Assembly (NCBI GenBank): GCA_030629485.1
Contig: DAOVOW010000021.1
Coordinates: 1 to 12,522 of the forward strand
Direction: 5' to 3'
Source of the DNA: a bacterium
GTDB taxonomy: Bacteria; Zixibacteria; MSB-5A5; GN15; FEB-12
DNA length: 12,522 bases
The position numbers and the translations under genes are program-made. Positions within the stretch are counted from its first letter, which is position 1; every line of letters starts with the position of its first letter. Below the pieces are notes generated by a model. That model was not told where the DNA came from and did not search any database. It saw only the letters and a program-made list of their open reading frames with translations. Positions 9,134 through 12,522 of the stretch are shown one piece after another.

Positions 9134-9940
9134 TCAACTGTTCAACGAAATCCTTCGCCTTAGCGCTGCTTCATGAACCTGCTCGGCCCGGTCTTCCAAC
9201 TGGTTCAACTCCCGGCGATCAAACTCCGCGCGGCTCAGTTCGATGCCGAGTCGGCGATTGAGTATCTTGGGAAAAGCAGCGCTCGCCTGTTCCCAACGCC
9301 GGAGACTAAGCGGTTGCAAACCAACCGGATGCGATTGGACGTCAGCCGCCTGACAATAAAGCGTCGGGTGGGGGGCCACGCCATCAAGCTTGATCGATCC
9401 GTGTTGCAGGATGGAATCCCCCTGTTGGCGCGCTGCCGAAGCAACAATCTTCGCGCCGTTGGCCAACACTTCATAACGTGAAGCCGACACAAAACAGGCT
9501 GCCTTGTGGAAAAAATCAGACCGCGAATTACTCTCAGCCGAACGGCGACAGTAGCTCGCATCTGTGCCCATGACACTCACGAATTCCGCCAAAGTCTCAG
9601 CCACGGTGCGGTAGAAACTCGACCTGCCCGTCGCCCATTCGCGTCCGTGCCACTCGGAGAGATTGACGGCAATGCTGTAGGTCAACTCAGAGCAGTCGTG
9701 ATAAAGAGCCCGCCCGCCGGTTATGCGACGTATCACCGGCGTGCCGTTCAGTTGAGAAGAATCGAAGGCACGCTCCATGTCCTGATTGACTCCAAATGTG
9801 ATCGCCCCCTCAGCCCAACTGTACAAGCGAACGAACAACGACCCCGGGACGCTGTGAGCCCGATCAAACAACCATTCATCGACAGCCATGTTGTAATACG
9901 GGTCACAGGCAAACTGACGATAGAAAAGGGGCTTCAACAT
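9134..9940 (-). CDS. LipM-type octanoyltransferase / lipoate-protein ligase family protein
   Basis: A 268-residue member of the biotin/lipoate A/B ligase fold, which attaches octanoyl or lipoyl groups to lipoyl domains (GcvH, E2 subunits) in the cytoplasm. R71-R72-I-T-G-G-R-A-L-Y-H81 is the family substrate-binding motif. C149 in AACFVSASRYEV and K164 in the GAKIVASAARQ stretch, followed by QHGSIKLDG, match the LipM-type octanoyltransferase pattern of a catalytic Cys and a conserved Lys, so LipM is favoured over an ATP-using LplA. Oddity: the usual K-I-x-G-S-A-Q reads KIVASAARQ here, so Gly and Gln are both replaced by Ala. The ATG at 9940 is the first possible start, because a TAA stop lies 12 nt upstream in frame. 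There is no Shine-Dalgarno site. No lipoylated protein or lipA gene is adjacent. Confidence 0.8.
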   Translation of the reverse strand: MLKPLFYRQFACDPYYNMAVDEWLFDRAHSVPGSLFVRLYSWAEGAITFGVNQDMERAFDSSQLNGTPVIRRITGGRALYHDCSELTYSIAVNLSEWHGREWATGRSSFYRTVAETLAEFVSVMGTDASYCRRSAESNSRSDFFHKAACFVSASRYEVLANGAKIVASAARQQGDSILQHGSIKLDGVAPHPTLYCQAADVQSHPVGLQPLSLRRWEQASAAFPKILNRRLGIELSRAEFDRRELNQLEDRAEQVHEAALRRRISLNS

Positions 9941-9946
9941 GGCGAC

Positions 9947-9975
9947 ATATTACACACCATCGGGACACAACGCAA
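9947..9975 (-). promoter_or_regulatory. Possible promoter giving a leaderless lipM-like mRNA
   Basis: On the - strand TTGCGT (9970-9975), a 17-bp spacer and TAATAT (9947-9952) end 6 nt before the ATG at 9940. Transcription would begin at or next to the start codon, which would fit the missing ribosome site. Both boxes are poor matches, so this is tentative. Confidence 0.25.
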
Positions 9976-10024
9976 GCCCAACCCAGGAGAATGCGAGCCT
10001 GACTATCCCCTAATTCAACTGTTT

Positions 10025-10088
10025 GTGGGCGGCAGACGTCCTCGTCTGCCCCGTATCCACGTGGCGCACGAGGACGTACACCACGCAC
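10025..10088. repeat. Palindromic intergenic repeat, copy A
   Basis: It begins GTGGGCGGCAGACG and contains a perfect 8-bp stem GGCAGACG-tcct-CGTCTGCC (10031-10050). It continues through ATCCACGTGG to GCACGAGGACGTAC (10066-10079) and CACC. Copy B, from 10580, shares the same layout and the exact 14-mer GCACGAGGACGTAC. It looks like a dispersed non-coding repeat rather than a gene end. Confidence 0.55.
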
Positions 10089-10106
10089 AATAAAAACTAG
10101 GTGAAC

Positions 10107-10125
10107 GGCAGATGTCCACTCTGCC
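10107..10125. repeat. Small GGCAGA/TCTGCC palindrome related to copy A
   Basis: GGCAGA-tgtccac-TCTGCC has 6-bp perfect arms and resembles a decayed version of the copy A stem (GGCAGACGTCC...TCTGCC) lying about 57 bp beyond it. Possibly a fragment of the same repeat family. Confidence 0.4.
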
Positions 10126-10243
10126 AACTGCGAACAACTTCGACTGACACGGTCTGACAGTCACTACTGTTATACTGAGTCCAGATAGAAACGACGGTTG
10201 GCTCTGTGGTACGGTCGGGTTGGGGAGACAGAGGAACGGGGGC

Positions 10244-10317
10244 AAAAAAAAGAGGGCGGGTAGATCGATGGTAGAGGGGGCTAGGGAGCTACCAGTGGAC
10301 GATCTACCCAAGTCCTC
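10244..10317 (-). terminator. Rho-independent terminator of the small RNA (three stacked stems, T8)
   Basis: Complementary arms on the - strand stack as 4-, 10- and 6-bp helices separated by small internal loops and end directly at TTTTTTTT (10244-10251). It would also stop read-through from the sigma-54 activator gene, whose stop codon is about 370 bp upstream on this strand. Confidence 0.65.
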
Positions 10318-10321
10318 GTCA
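10244..10321 (-). ncRNA. Candidate small RNA of about 77 nt with its own promoter and terminator
   Basis: A near-consensus promoter (-35 10350-10355, -10 10328-10333) predicts a start near 10320-10322. The transcript folds almost whole: GAGG/CCTC at the base (10314-10317 with 10252-10255), a perfect 10-bp helix GGGTAGATCG/CGATCTACCC (10300-10309 with 10258-10267), then TGGTAG/CTACCA (10289-10294 with 10269-10274), closed by a 14-nt C/U-rich loop. The base of the stem runs straight into eight T residues (10244-10251). There is no open reading frame of note and no match to 6S, 4.5S, tmRNA or tRNA that I can see. It could instead be an attenuator in the leader of the LipM-like gene 300 nt downstream. 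Function unknown. Confidence 0.6.
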
Positions 10322-10327
10322 ACCGTC

Positions 10328-10355
10328 ATTATACCAGAATCCAGCCAAATGTCAA
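10328..10355 (-). promoter_or_regulatory. Near-consensus sigma-70 promoter of the candidate small RNA
   Basis: On the - strand TTGACA (10350-10355) and TATAAT (10328-10333) are both perfect hexamers with a 16-bp spacer. The -10 box carries the TGn extension (TGGTATAAT). A T7 tract (10368-10374) lies 12 nt upstream of the -35 box, where an UP element would be. The 9-mer ACGGTTGAC occurs twice, overlapping the -35 box and the start site. Confidence 0.75.
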
Positions 10356-10410
10356 CCGTTAGTTGAGAAAAAAACTGACTTGCGACGCAGCCGTGTTATG
10401 TGTGTTGGTA

Positions 10411-10430
10411 GTAACAGATTACACTGTTAC
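10411..10430. repeat. Perfect 7-bp inverted repeat upstream of the small RNA promoter
   Basis: GTAACAG-attaca-CTGTTAC, a 20-bp palindrome about 55 bp upstream of the -35 box. It may be a binding site for a dimeric regulator or part of the neighbouring hairpin cassette. Confidence 0.4.
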
Positions 10431-10489
10431 AAACCACGACCACCTTGAACGTCGCGCTCCACACCTCATCCTGAGCGGAGGAATCGCAG

Positions 10490-10567
10490 GTCGAAACCCC
10501 AGCGGTTTCGACATTGCGTCAGGATCACAAGGATCCTGACCTACTGGATTCCGGCTTTCGCCGAAAT
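10490..10567. repeat. Cassette of three consecutive hairpins
   Basis: GTCGAAACC-ccagc-GGTTTCGAC (10490-10512) and GTCAGGATC-acaag-GATCCTGAC (10518-10540) each have perfect 9-bp arms and 5-nt loops. ATTCCGGC-tttc-GCCGAAAT (10548-10567) follows with one mismatch. None is followed by a T-run, so they do not look like ordinary terminators. They resemble dispersed palindromic repeats and lie between the activator gene and the small RNA. Confidence 0.6.
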
Positions 10568-10579
10568 GACACTCGTAGT

Positions 10580-10688
10580 GTGTGCGGTGGACGTCCCCGT
10601 CTACCGCGCCGGCATCCAAAGGCCGGTGCACGAGGACGTACGCCGACCACAAACTTATGAGACCAGCCCCGGGGCGTCTGCCGCCCAC
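10580..10688. repeat. Palindromic intergenic repeat, copy B, with imperfect inverted ends
   Basis: It starts GTGTGCGGTGGACG (10580-10593) and ends with the inverse complement of GTGGGCGGCAGACG (10675-10688); the ends match at 11 of 14 bases. Inside are GACGTCCCCGTCT, ATCCA, and GCACGAGGACGTAC (10628-10641), shared with copy A. The element of about 109 bp with inverted ends could be a MITE-like or REP-like unit. It stops 2 bp from the activator stop codon. Confidence 0.5.
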
Positions 10689-10690
10689 GG

Positions 10691-12522
10691 TCAGGAGGGA
10701 TGCTTGTATTGGGCGAGATCGATATCGTACTGCTTGATCTTGAGACGCAAGGTCGACTCAGGGATATTCAAGAACGCGGCAGCGTGTTTCTTGACGCCAC
10801 GTTTGGCCATCAAGGCCTTCATGATGAAGGTCTTTTCATGGTCGGCCAGGTAGTCGTAAAGCCCAAATCGTTCGCTGAACTCGATGACATCCGGAGACGA
10901 CGTAGTAGCCCGGCCATCGCCGTTACCTCCATCGGCAGCAGAAGACTGCTCGCATATCTTGTTCGAAAGAAGATTGGGTATGATTTCCTCGTCGTCACCG
11001 GACAGCAGCACCAACTTCTTGATTTCATTATCAAGCTCACGTACGTTGCCCGGCCAATCATAATCCACAAACGCCTTCACCAGTTCCGGCGTCAATCTCT
11101 TGCCCGAGGGAGCGAGAAAGTGTTCGGCCAGCAGCAGAATATCTTCTCTACGTTCGCGCAGCGGTGGCAGTCGGAAAGTCATCGCGGACAGCCGATAGTA
11201 CAAATCCTGTCGAAACAGACCGGCGCTCATTTGTTCCTTAAGATCCCTGTTGGTGGCCGACACGATGCGCACATCGACCTGCCGCGGAACGGTTTCGCCC
11301 AGTCGAACGATCTCTTTTTCCTCAAGTATCCGCAACACCTTGGCCTGGATACTGAGTGGCATGTCGCCGATTTCGTCAAGGAAGAAGGTGCCGCCGTCGG
11401 CTTCCTCGAATAAGCCGGGCTTATCACGGTCGGCGCCCGTAAACGCCCCGCGGCGATAACCGAACAACTCTGATTCCAGAAGTGACTCTGGAAGGGCGGC
11501 ACAGTTGACCGAGATGAAGCGATGGTTCTTCCGAATCGAATTGTAATGAATGGCTCGGGCCAGAAGATCCTTGCCACAGCCGGTCTCACCTTCGATAGAG
11601 AGCGATATATTAGAATCAATGACCTGCCGCACCTGGGACAGCATTCTCAGCATCTCGGAATTGGCGGTGATGATATTTGGGAAGGCAGCTTCCTTCATCA
11701 ACTGACTCTTGAGTCTTTGGTTGTCTTCCAAAAGCTTGTTTTTCTGGATCTCGGTCCATTTGAAAGCAATGAGATCGGAGAAGCCAACCGCGAAATTCAG
11801 TTGTGTCTGGTTGAACGGATTAAGACAGTTGTCCTGTGACAATCGATCGAGATAGAGATATCCGGCCGAATCATCACTGGTTTTGAAAGGGACGACAATA
11901 ACACTGGCCACAACTTCAGCCACATCCGTGAATAATTCGTTGATGAAGGGATCACGGCGGCAGTCCAACAGCAAGGTGGGCCGGTCAACGGCAATCTCCT
12001 CGCCTAACATACCGCCAAGACTATCAGTGAATCGTTTGGCCTGCCCGGCCTCGATCGGGAAGGAGGCGATCACCGATTGATCTGAAGAATCCGGCACGTA
12101 AATCAGCGCCCGTTCACCGCCTGTCTTCTCCAGCAAGACCGACAGGATCACCTCCATCTGCGACGATTGGAGATCGGTCAAATCGTCTGGGCTGATCAGA
12201 TTACCGAAAATCTTGAATTCATTATCGTCCGAGATCGACAGAGCCACGGCCTGCTCCGATAAAGCGCGCAAATAGTTTGCGACTGCTCTGACTCGAGTGT
12301 TGGCGCCCAACGATGCGAACCCTTTCTCAGCCCGGCTGAGCTTGCGGAATCCAGCAGCCAACTCGCCGCACTGACAGGCGAATACGCCGGCCTTGAAGTT
12401 GGCTTCACTCATCCAGTAGTTGAGTTTCAATCTCCTGAATATGCGGTGGGCCTCATCAAGGCTCACCCGGATCTTGTCTTTCTCCTCGGTCTGAGCGGCC
12501 AGACAGATATCCGAAAACACCA
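10691..12522 (-). CDS. Sigma-54-dependent transcriptional activator (TPR-GAF-AAA+-Fis), N-terminus cut by window edge
   Basis: An enhancer-binding protein that uses ATP to open promoters bound by sigma-54 RNA polymerase. The visible 610 codons (the reading frame remains open at the window end; numbering from the GTG at 12520) show, in order: helical TPR-like repeats (about 5-95); a GAF-like sensor domain (about 115-255); a coiled-coil linker (256-275); and the AAA+ domain with Walker A GETGCGKD (311-318), the sigma-54 contact loop GAFTGA (358-363), Walker B GGTFFLDEIGD (376-386), a sensor I region (SATNRDL, 421-427), the arginine-finger stretch FRQDLYYR (436-443) and sensor II WPGNVREL (489-496). 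A Fis-type helix-turn-helix lies at about 561-600. All residues needed for ATP hydrolysis and sigma-54 contact are present. There is no receiver domain in view, so it is likely driven by a ligand or protein partner. Proteins of this layout can carry a kinase or more TPRs further upstream; that part lies outside the window. Confidence 0.93.
   Translation of the reverse strand, partial: VFSDICLAAQTEEKDKIRVSLDEAHRIFRRLKLNYWMSEANFKAGVFACQCGELAAGFRKLSRAEKGFASLGANTRVRAVANYLRALSEQAVALSISDDNEFKIFGNLISPDDLTDLQSSQMEVILSVLLEKTGGERALIYVPDSSDQSVIASFPIEAGQAKRFTDSLGGMLGEEIAVDRPTLLLDCRRDPFINELFTDVAEVVASVIVVPFKTSDDSAGYLYLDRLSQDNCLNPFNQTQLNFAVGFSDLIAFKWTEIQKNKLLEDNQRLKSQLMKEAAFPNIITANSEMLRMLSQVRQVIDSNISLSIEGETGCGKDLLARAIHYNSIRKNHRFISVNCAALPESLLESELFGYRRGAFTGADRDKPGLFEEADGGTFFLDEIGDMPLSIQAKVLRILEEKEIVRLGETVPRQVDVRIVSATNRDLKEQMSAGLFRQDLYYRLSAMTFRLPPLRERREDILLLAEHFLAPSGKRLTPELVKAFVDYDWPGNVRELDNEIKKLVLLSGDDEEIIPNLLSNKICEQSSAADGGNGDGRATTSSPDVIEFSERFGLYDYLADHEKTFIMKALMAKRGVKKHAAAFLNIPESTLRLKIKQYDIDLAQYKHPS

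Follow-up and report, generated by a model that had tools for sequence, protein, structure and literature searches.

A promoter-like sequence followed by a long hairpin and a T-run lies on the minus strand between two genes of the window, by which we mean the whole 12,522-nt stretch of DNA analysed here. This raises the question whether the locus is a small RNA gene of its own or belongs to the leader of the next gene. The original prediction preferred a candidate dedicated small RNA in a 750-bp gene-free gap, and this gap is present at 9941-10690 between both flanking genes. Conservation, covariation, promoter and context support this preference, and we regard it as very probable, judging from sequence data, that the locus is a real stand-alone sRNA gene. 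The predicted RNA of the window is one divergent copy of a multi-copy family that occurs in most of the phylum Candidatus Zixiibacteriota. The relevant features are, in the direction of transcription:

10691..12520, minus strand: upstream neighbour, a GAF / sigma-54 activator / HTH_8 regulator cut by the window edge, with its C-terminal part inside the window
10368..10374, minus strand: T7 tract upstream of the -35 hexamer, possible UP-like element (also T7 in the G004 and G006 copies)
10350..10355, minus strand: -35 hexamer TTGACA (recurs in the family)
10328..10333, minus strand: -10 hexamer TATAAT, with TGG before it at 10336-10334 (from the sequence)
10244..10320, minus strand: predicted small RNA gene of about 77 nt, divergent family copy (covariance model, fold, conservation)
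10314..10317, minus strand: basal stem, 5' arm GAGG (fold and covariation alignment)
10300..10310, minus strand: middle stem, 5' arm, 11 pairs in the window copy (fold)
10289..10294, minus strand: apical stem, 5' arm TGGTAG (fold and covariation alignment)
10275..10288, minus strand: 14-nt C-rich loop CTCCCTAGCCCCCT, presumed recognition site (found in the genus' copies of the locus)
10269..10274, minus strand: apical stem, 3' arm CTACCA (fold and covariation alignment)
10257..10267, minus strand: middle stem, 3' arm (fold)
10252..10255, minus strand: basal stem, 3' arm CCTC (fold and covariation alignment)
10244..10251, minus strand: T8 tract directly after the stem, predicted intrinsic termination point
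10144..10160, no strand assigned: palindrome CTGNCA-N5-TGNCAG, 83 nt past the RNA end, sole match in the window (10/10 letters)
9134..9940, minus strand: flanking gene downstream, lipoate-protein ligase family (Pfam)

Promoter, fold and conservation within the genus

The promoter consists of TTGACA, a 16-nt spacer ending in TGG, and TATAAT, and is the only promoter-like site in the 12.5-kb window with 12/12 hexamer letters, the next best having 10/12. The perfect hexamers, the TGn extension and the upstream T7 tract reported earlier can all be read in the sequence. The predicted transcript, with a start at about 10320, begins with GACGAGGACUUGGG and folds as a three-tier hairpin that leads straight into U8. 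At -27.6 kcal/mol, this hairpin was not equalled by any of 200 shuffled sequences, and the z-scores were -4.5 for 10321-10244 and -5.2 for 10320-10244. The earlier description of a three-tier stem ending exactly at T8 agrees with the fold, in which T8 (10251-10244) directly follows the stem, and the predicted transcript of about 77 nt, mostly hairpin, is supported by a fold z-score of about -5 and by conservation that matches its predicted extent. A simple terminator scan lacked this hairpin because the 14-nt loop exceeds the limit of 8 in that scan. The two covariance models introduced below matched 10242-10320 with E-values of 4.7e-12 (R1) and 7.4e-16 (R2).

The assembly that contains the window comprises 2.47 Mb in 437 contigs and is 83% complete. 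Within a set of seven genomes of the genus, including that of the window, BLAST located the locus in four others and did not find it in G001 and G005, both of which are incomplete. Over the 77 nt, identity to the window was 77/77 in G006 and G004, 75/77 in G003 and 74/77 in G002. For the 60-nt promoter region, the values in the same order were 93, 87, 62 and 62%, for the 30 nt upstream of it 83, 87, 47 and 20%, and for the 60 nt past the U-run 57, 83, 30 and 43%. Conservation is confined to the promoter and the predicted transcript and exceeds chance.

A small protein was considered and rejected, as no frame was maintained across copies, which measure 68-83 nt: the three frames anchored at the C-run were stop-free in 8, 13 and 53 of 100 copies. 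The 750-bp gap is crossed by a 104-aa ORF, which had no Pfam match and whose ATG is missing in G004 and G006; its frame is open across the RNA in the five genus copies and ends 105-303 nt beyond the start of the RNA. The RNA is flanked at 10021-10090 and 10619-10688 by imperfect repeats, both inverted and direct (CACGAGGACGTAC, GGCAGACGTCC), which are rare in about 2 Mb of family loci.

A multi-copy family in Candidatus Zixiibacteriota

Secondary BLAST matches shared only the apical hairpin, but belong to full paralogues, in which a promoter-like stretch is followed by a stem of the form GAGGG...CCCTC and by a U-run. The pattern GGTAGNNNNYTAGCCCCCTCTACC occurred 11 times in the 7 genus genomes and in 66 stretches among 84,980 species genomes. 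The labels Zixiibacteriota, Zixibacteria or GN15 were attached to 53 of these stretches, and 11 of the other 13 were assigned to the same phylum by eye, leaving L074 and L087 unassigned. In a looser pattern search with 3 mismatches permitted, the reversed control gave matches in many genomes as well, and we relied on the counts of the covariance models instead. R1, built from 65 copies, matched in 68 of 80 genomes of the order, in 108 of 132 genomes of the phylum and in 65 of 78 good phylum genomes. R2, a second model to which divergent copies had been added, matched in 112 of 386 relatives, namely 109 of the phylum (132 genomes) and 3 of 254 outside it; the figure of 254 presupposes that the 386 include every one of the 132 phylum genomes, which was deduced from their numbering. 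The three matches outside the phylum (E 0.001-0.003) are about the number expected at E 0.01 per genome. R2 found no match in 23 of the 132 phylum genomes, some of them with an estimated completeness of 99-100%. Six listed genomes of family f19 (G125-G130), all at least 93% complete, are without a match, which may indicate a loss, or that the RNA arose after this branch.

The window genome contains three copies, on contigs C111 (main type), C189 (the window) and C9. The third (L217, G000:C9:1822-1898) has its own TTGACA-17-TATAAT promoter and a loop of little more than UUCCCCCCUCU. The highest number of copies per genome was four, in G078. Tandem pairs of RNAs about 130-210 nt apart, with diverged loops, were seen at L165 (3050-3413), L166 (2982-3351) and L188 (3011-3296). 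An outlier subfamily in family f3 (L185, L187, L215) has the basal stem GCGGCGT or similar and the loop GUUGACUAAUCCCCU or GUUGCCAACCCCCU, and its copies adjoin a CheW-family gene on the opposite strand (by Pfam for L185). At L320, about 1474-1487 on the minus strand (G076:C15), GGAAGTTTCCTAACCCCCTCTCCC lies inside a longer inverted repeat; this site is absent among the listed model matches and may be a further distant relative. Plasmids and viruses as vehicles of spread were considered and rejected: plasmids gave no match with one main copy as query, and IMG/VR gave none with the exact pattern.

Covariation strongly supports the structure. In 98 distinct copies, all 18 model pairs showed two-sided changes that keep the pairing. 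The alignment contained 203 compensatory cells compared to 42 ± 5 in shuffles, of which 0/500 reached that number, although the count is inflated because the alignment was fitted to the structure. The covariation score was 0.395, against 0.146 in shuffles and at most 0.075 for slid structures. From the same alignment, RNAalifold independently selected 16 pairs, all with two-sided changes. The check proposed with the original prediction, a covariance search for compensatory changes, was thus strongly passed, with stem and promoter conserved. Alignment A3 holds 65 of 71 extracted copies selected by the exact apical-loop pattern, and its apical invariance is therefore due to selection. Apical covariation was taken from alignment A5 (97 chosen sources, 100 matches, E up to 0.01), which omits locus L085 as a duplicate of L206. 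Alignment A4 was discarded since its limit of E up to 1 admitted doubtful matches, among them some on the reverse strand. L197, which has E 0.003 and folds poorly, does not enter A5 or the promoter and next-gene counts given below, but is part of the regulator-neighbour and palindrome tallies.

The lower stems differ strongly between subtypes, with GGGTAGATCG/CGATCTACCC in the window and GAGGGTG plus CTCTG with CAGAG and CRCCCTC in the main type. The loop changes little, from UUUCCUAGCCCCCU in most main copies to CUCCCUAGCCCCCU in the window. The main-type loop mostly reads TTTCCTAGCCCCCT, and the end YTAGCCCCCT is common to the window and main-type copies. The near-invariant part is the 14-nt loop ending in YUAGCCCCCU, with variants in divergent copies; the most distant copies retain only the C-run, usually five or six C, mostly followed by UCU.

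The absence of a known RNA family, as noted before, was borne out: at gathering score, Rfam gave no family in the window and only tRNAs in 12 family loci, and permissive Rfam scans returned nothing or chance-level matches. Searches of open-licence papers gave no small or noncoding RNA of Zixibacteria among the papers listed. The small RNA family is absent from Rfam 15 and appears in no catalogue searched.

Possible partners of the C-rich loop

The function that we somewhat favour is that of a stand-alone sRNA gene of about 77 nt whose loop pairs with G-rich mRNA without Hfq or ProQ; for loop base pairing as such, we see an even chance. RNA polymerase would start near 10320, and the RNA's own hairpin would stop transcription, which would give a stable RNA that presents the loop CUCCCUAGCCCCCU as seed. 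The loop might then pair with G-rich stretches in a limited set of mRNAs and change their translation or stability without Hfq or ProQ. Hfq was not found in 80 genomes of the order by a search that detects it in 5 of 14 known controls, and ProQ was not found in the same 80 genomes by a search with 1 of 14 controls detected. Pairing with G-rich mRNA is thought most likely because the loop resembles the seed loops of RepG and of 6C RNA, which we take to be identical with mycobacterial B11.

6C is conserved through many genera of Actinomycetales, with C-runs in the hairpin loops and two stem-loops with typically six C each (PMC4046766). B11 acts on a tract of six G in the 5' UTR of eccB4 (PMC10470900), and B11/6C hosts are bacteria without known Hfq or ProQ (PMC8628891). 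The Zixibacteria RNA is similar to 6C/B11 in its C-rich hairpin loop and may be so in working without Hfq or ProQ, which were not found in 80 genomes of the order by the searches described above. It differs from 6C in having one hairpin with one C-run of usually five or six, as well as in a different loop sequence and in a loop that is part of the terminator hairpin; the Rfam model of 6C gave no match, whether at gathering score or with E-values of up to 10 admitted. RepG of Helicobacter pylori uses the C/U-rich loop of its terminator hairpin as seed, and regulation is restored by a mutant with that stem-loop alone; the RNA, which has a further stem-loop, pairs with a phase-variable G-repeat in one leader (PMC8295292). 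Compared by features, the two RNAs share a C/U-rich loop inside the terminator hairpin, but the Zixibacteria RNA lacks the further stem-loop. C-rich stretches also recognise targets, including Shine-Dalgarno regions, in IsrR of Staphylococcus, a longer RNA in which the terminator is separate from the three C-rich regions, and in FsrA of Bacillus, which needs chaperones (PMC9410917). In the Zixibacteria RNA, on the other hand, pairing of the loop with gene starts did not exceed that of shuffled loops in the one genome analysed.

Pairing was examined in several searches. At 301 gene starts at family loci, words complementary to the CCCUC end of the loop were enriched: GAGGG occurred 15 times, compared to 5 and 1 in controls, and AGGGG 10 times, compared to 2 and 3. 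This enrichment is part of the general Shine-Dalgarno signal. The same gene starts were not enriched in GGGGG (4 versus 3 and 2), GGGGGC (0 versus 2 and 0) or CUAG-spanning words. In G021 (at most 643 predicted genes), gene starts were favoured over coding controls by -0.51 kcal/mol with the 19-nt loop, compared to -0.41 ± 0.32 with 15 shuffled loops, and the 13-nt loop core, at -0.03 versus -0.51 ± 0.34, was worse if anything. General Shine-Dalgarno blocking was rejected, as the signal was no more than any C/U-rich loop would show, and so was regulation of the neighbours through their starts, at which pairing was likewise not above the level of shuffled loops. Complements of the 13 nt with at most 1 mismatch outside RNA copies did not recur in leaders in the 23 sites examined of about 46 (counted by eye), and a fully complementary conserved partner was rejected on this basis. 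The only recurring complement (G012, G028, G029, G030, G054) lies inside one coding gene on the antisense strand and is therefore no mRNA target; three others are located 40-46 nt before an ORF, each in single genomes. The lack of a pairing signal at gene starts means that targets are few, or that the loop binds a protein.

Accordingly, the same sRNA family may have a loop that binds a protein or one dedicated partner RNA, which the RNA would titrate or guide, as CsrB works on CsrA and GlmY on RapZ; we consider this possible, though rather doubtful. The seeds of pairing sRNAs often drift together with their targets, whereas this loop is kept almost letter for letter across the phylum, and the presence of several copies per genome, together with pairing at gene starts not beyond that of shuffled loops, also points in the direction of a dedicated partner. 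So do hairpins with degenerate U-runs beside a large regulator gene, which look like a shared recognition element. However, no candidate partner protein was found, and the third loop of the window genome (G000:C9), with little beyond its C-run, looks more like a pairing seed. A Y RNA as partner of Ro60 was rejected, as TROVE-domain proteins were found in 0/80 genomes of the order by a search with 1 of 14 controls detected.

Divergent copies tend to lie near signalling genes, and the window copy belongs to this group. The regulator-linked hairpins were found at eight loci (in G010, G016, G038, G066, G073, G074, G095 and G096), where a copy lies 148-281 nt upstream of a giant regulator on the same strand, and in G037 the same regulator is also downstream of the RNA copy. 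The protein at L085 has 1406 aa with Pkinase, TPR, GAF, sigma-54 activator and HTH_8 domains, and the others were identified by BLAST. Divergent copies adjoining the giant regulator are L182, L183, L195, L197, L203, L205, L206, L207 and L208. In the window's genus, a homologue of the regulator is located upstream, and a kinase domain was not detected in it; in G004 it has 981 aa with TPR, sigma-54 and HTH_8. In the eight kinase-linked copies of A5, T occupies 2-5 of the 8 positions after the stem in seven and 7 in one (mean 3.9), compared to a mean of 6.4 in the other 92 copies (p 8e-5, rank test, with related loci). The U-run is thus weak as a terminator in 7 of 8 regulator-linked copies, and read-through would be possible there. 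NarL-type response regulators are encoded at most 1.2 kb upstream on the same strand of 13 copies, and the two tested have Response_reg and GerE domains. The regulator-gene background was none of kinase or response-regulator type in 800 kb of one genome. The position of the RNA behind response-regulator genes is reminiscent of sRNAs under two-component control. The RNA lies directly behind a NarL-type gene at L162, L165, L174-L178 and in the main copies L069, L072, L076 and L099, and at L165 a GAF-HisKA_3-HATPase histidine kinase precedes the response regulator.

The palindrome listed above had one 10/10 match in 800 kb of a relative. With at least 9/10 letters, it occurred within 350 nt downstream of 4/19 A-like copies (including L001, the window), 8/51 divergent and 0/60 main copies, and within 350 nt upstream of 1/19, 4/51 and 1/60, respectively. 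From its frequency in 800 kb of G021, 0.012 matches would be expected per copy on each side. The pattern was defined after viewing regulator leaders, so that its matches there (6/9) are no independent test; matches that did not define it are the window, whose site was noticed by eye first, L295 and L296, which are genus relatives of the window, and L167, L169 and L200. The site is 39-97 nt downstream of the RNA in the window, L203, L167, L169, L182, L183, L195, L197, L207 and L296, and 260-295 nt downstream in L200 and L295. The palindrome is possibly the binding site of the sigma-54 activator regulator, a reading suggested by the regulator's HTH_8 domain.

These observations can be combined in a reading that we regard as unlikely, in which one hairpin with a near-invariant C-rich loop acts throughout the phylum as a recognition element that takes two forms. 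One would be the sRNAs that end in a terminator and have promoters of their own, the other the related hairpins with degenerate U-runs, next to the gene of the giant Ser/Thr-kinase-TPR-GAF-sigma-54 regulator and the palindrome presumed to bind it. Both forms would then compete for one partner. If this were true, the resulting signalling circuit would differ from those of Hfq, ProQ and CsrA.

Own promoter and gene context

Returning to the stand-alone sRNA gene, the sequence evidence in its favour consists of an own promoter, a covarying terminator-ended hairpin and no conserved frame. Of 124 copies with enough flank, 109 have at least 5/6 letters of TTGACA at a distance of 25-76 nt before the stem, compared to 34.6 in shuffles, and 86 have exact TTGACA, mostly 34-54 nt upstream. 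Most main copies sit behind a gene of the PALP family (cysteine-synthase-like) and a DUF1573 gene, and a good part of them is arranged tail to tail with RtcB and archease genes; among 60 main copies, PALP was near 40 and RtcB near 19. Of the same 60, 43 are followed by a convergent gene and 8 by one on the same strand; for 6 more the next gene is over 700 nt away, and for the last 3 it was out of reach. Among 19 other copies with the exact apical pattern, the next gene was convergent for 7 and lay on the RNA's own strand for 11, and among 57 divergent copies these numbers were 32 and 18. The convergent arrangement thus does not hold for all subtypes. Genes in these context counts were called by a simple ORF rule, and the counts are non-independent events because neighbours are inherited. 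A tRNA-Gly/tRNA-Cys pair lies within a few kb of the RNA at L064, L068, L077, L079, L096 and L111; linkage to tRNA genes was rejected, with tRNAs in 14/53 loci scanned and no fixed position.

This context bears on the alternative given with the original prediction, an attenuator of the LipM-like gene, or more generally a cis-acting leader (attenuator or riboswitch) of the downstream lipoate ligase gene, which we judge highly improbable. The ligase gene lplA does begin 303 nt past the RNA in the same orientation, and the gene order regulator-RNA-lplA-TonB receptor-PorV-like is maintained where contigs reach, with RNA and lplA in this order in five species; elsewhere, divergent copies precede the large regulator at the distances given above, mostly with a weak U-run. 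However, the gap between RNA and lplA is 66 nt in G002, 429 in G004, 881 in G003 and 1734 in G006, so its position is not fixed, and the first 60 nt of the spacer are poorly conserved in 3/4 relatives (30-57%), with 83% in G004. The MFE and centroid structures of the 77-78 nt alone contain no anti-terminator. For the majority of the main copies, which are the commonest type, a role as leader is unlikely, because the next gene is usually convergent.

A disguised housekeeping RNA, such as a shortened 6S RNA that binds RNA polymerase, is very unlikely as well. The spread of the family through the phylum would suit such a role, and RF00013 detected no 6S in the window or in 80 genomes, but the same model finds 6S in only 5 of 14 control genomes, so this absence says little. 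6S RNA has about 180 nt and a long stem with a central bubble, whereas the present RNA has 77 nt, a C-rich loop, multiple copies and neither of these structures. An ordinary transcription terminator of an upstream gene that was copied around is extremely improbable: most main copies do follow the DUF1573 gene by about 80-340 nt on the same strand, but most copies have a promoter directly upstream, their loop is conserved, which a terminator does not need, and they sit behind unrelated genes.

Few sRNAs are conserved throughout a phylum, and most of these have housekeeping functions. The present candidate is an sRNA of a phylum without cultured members, and the survey of one order of this phylum detected neither Hfq nor ProQ. 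With its alignment and covariance model, its defined loop and its genomic link to signalling genes, the family makes it directly testable how bacteria without Hfq or ProQ use small RNAs.
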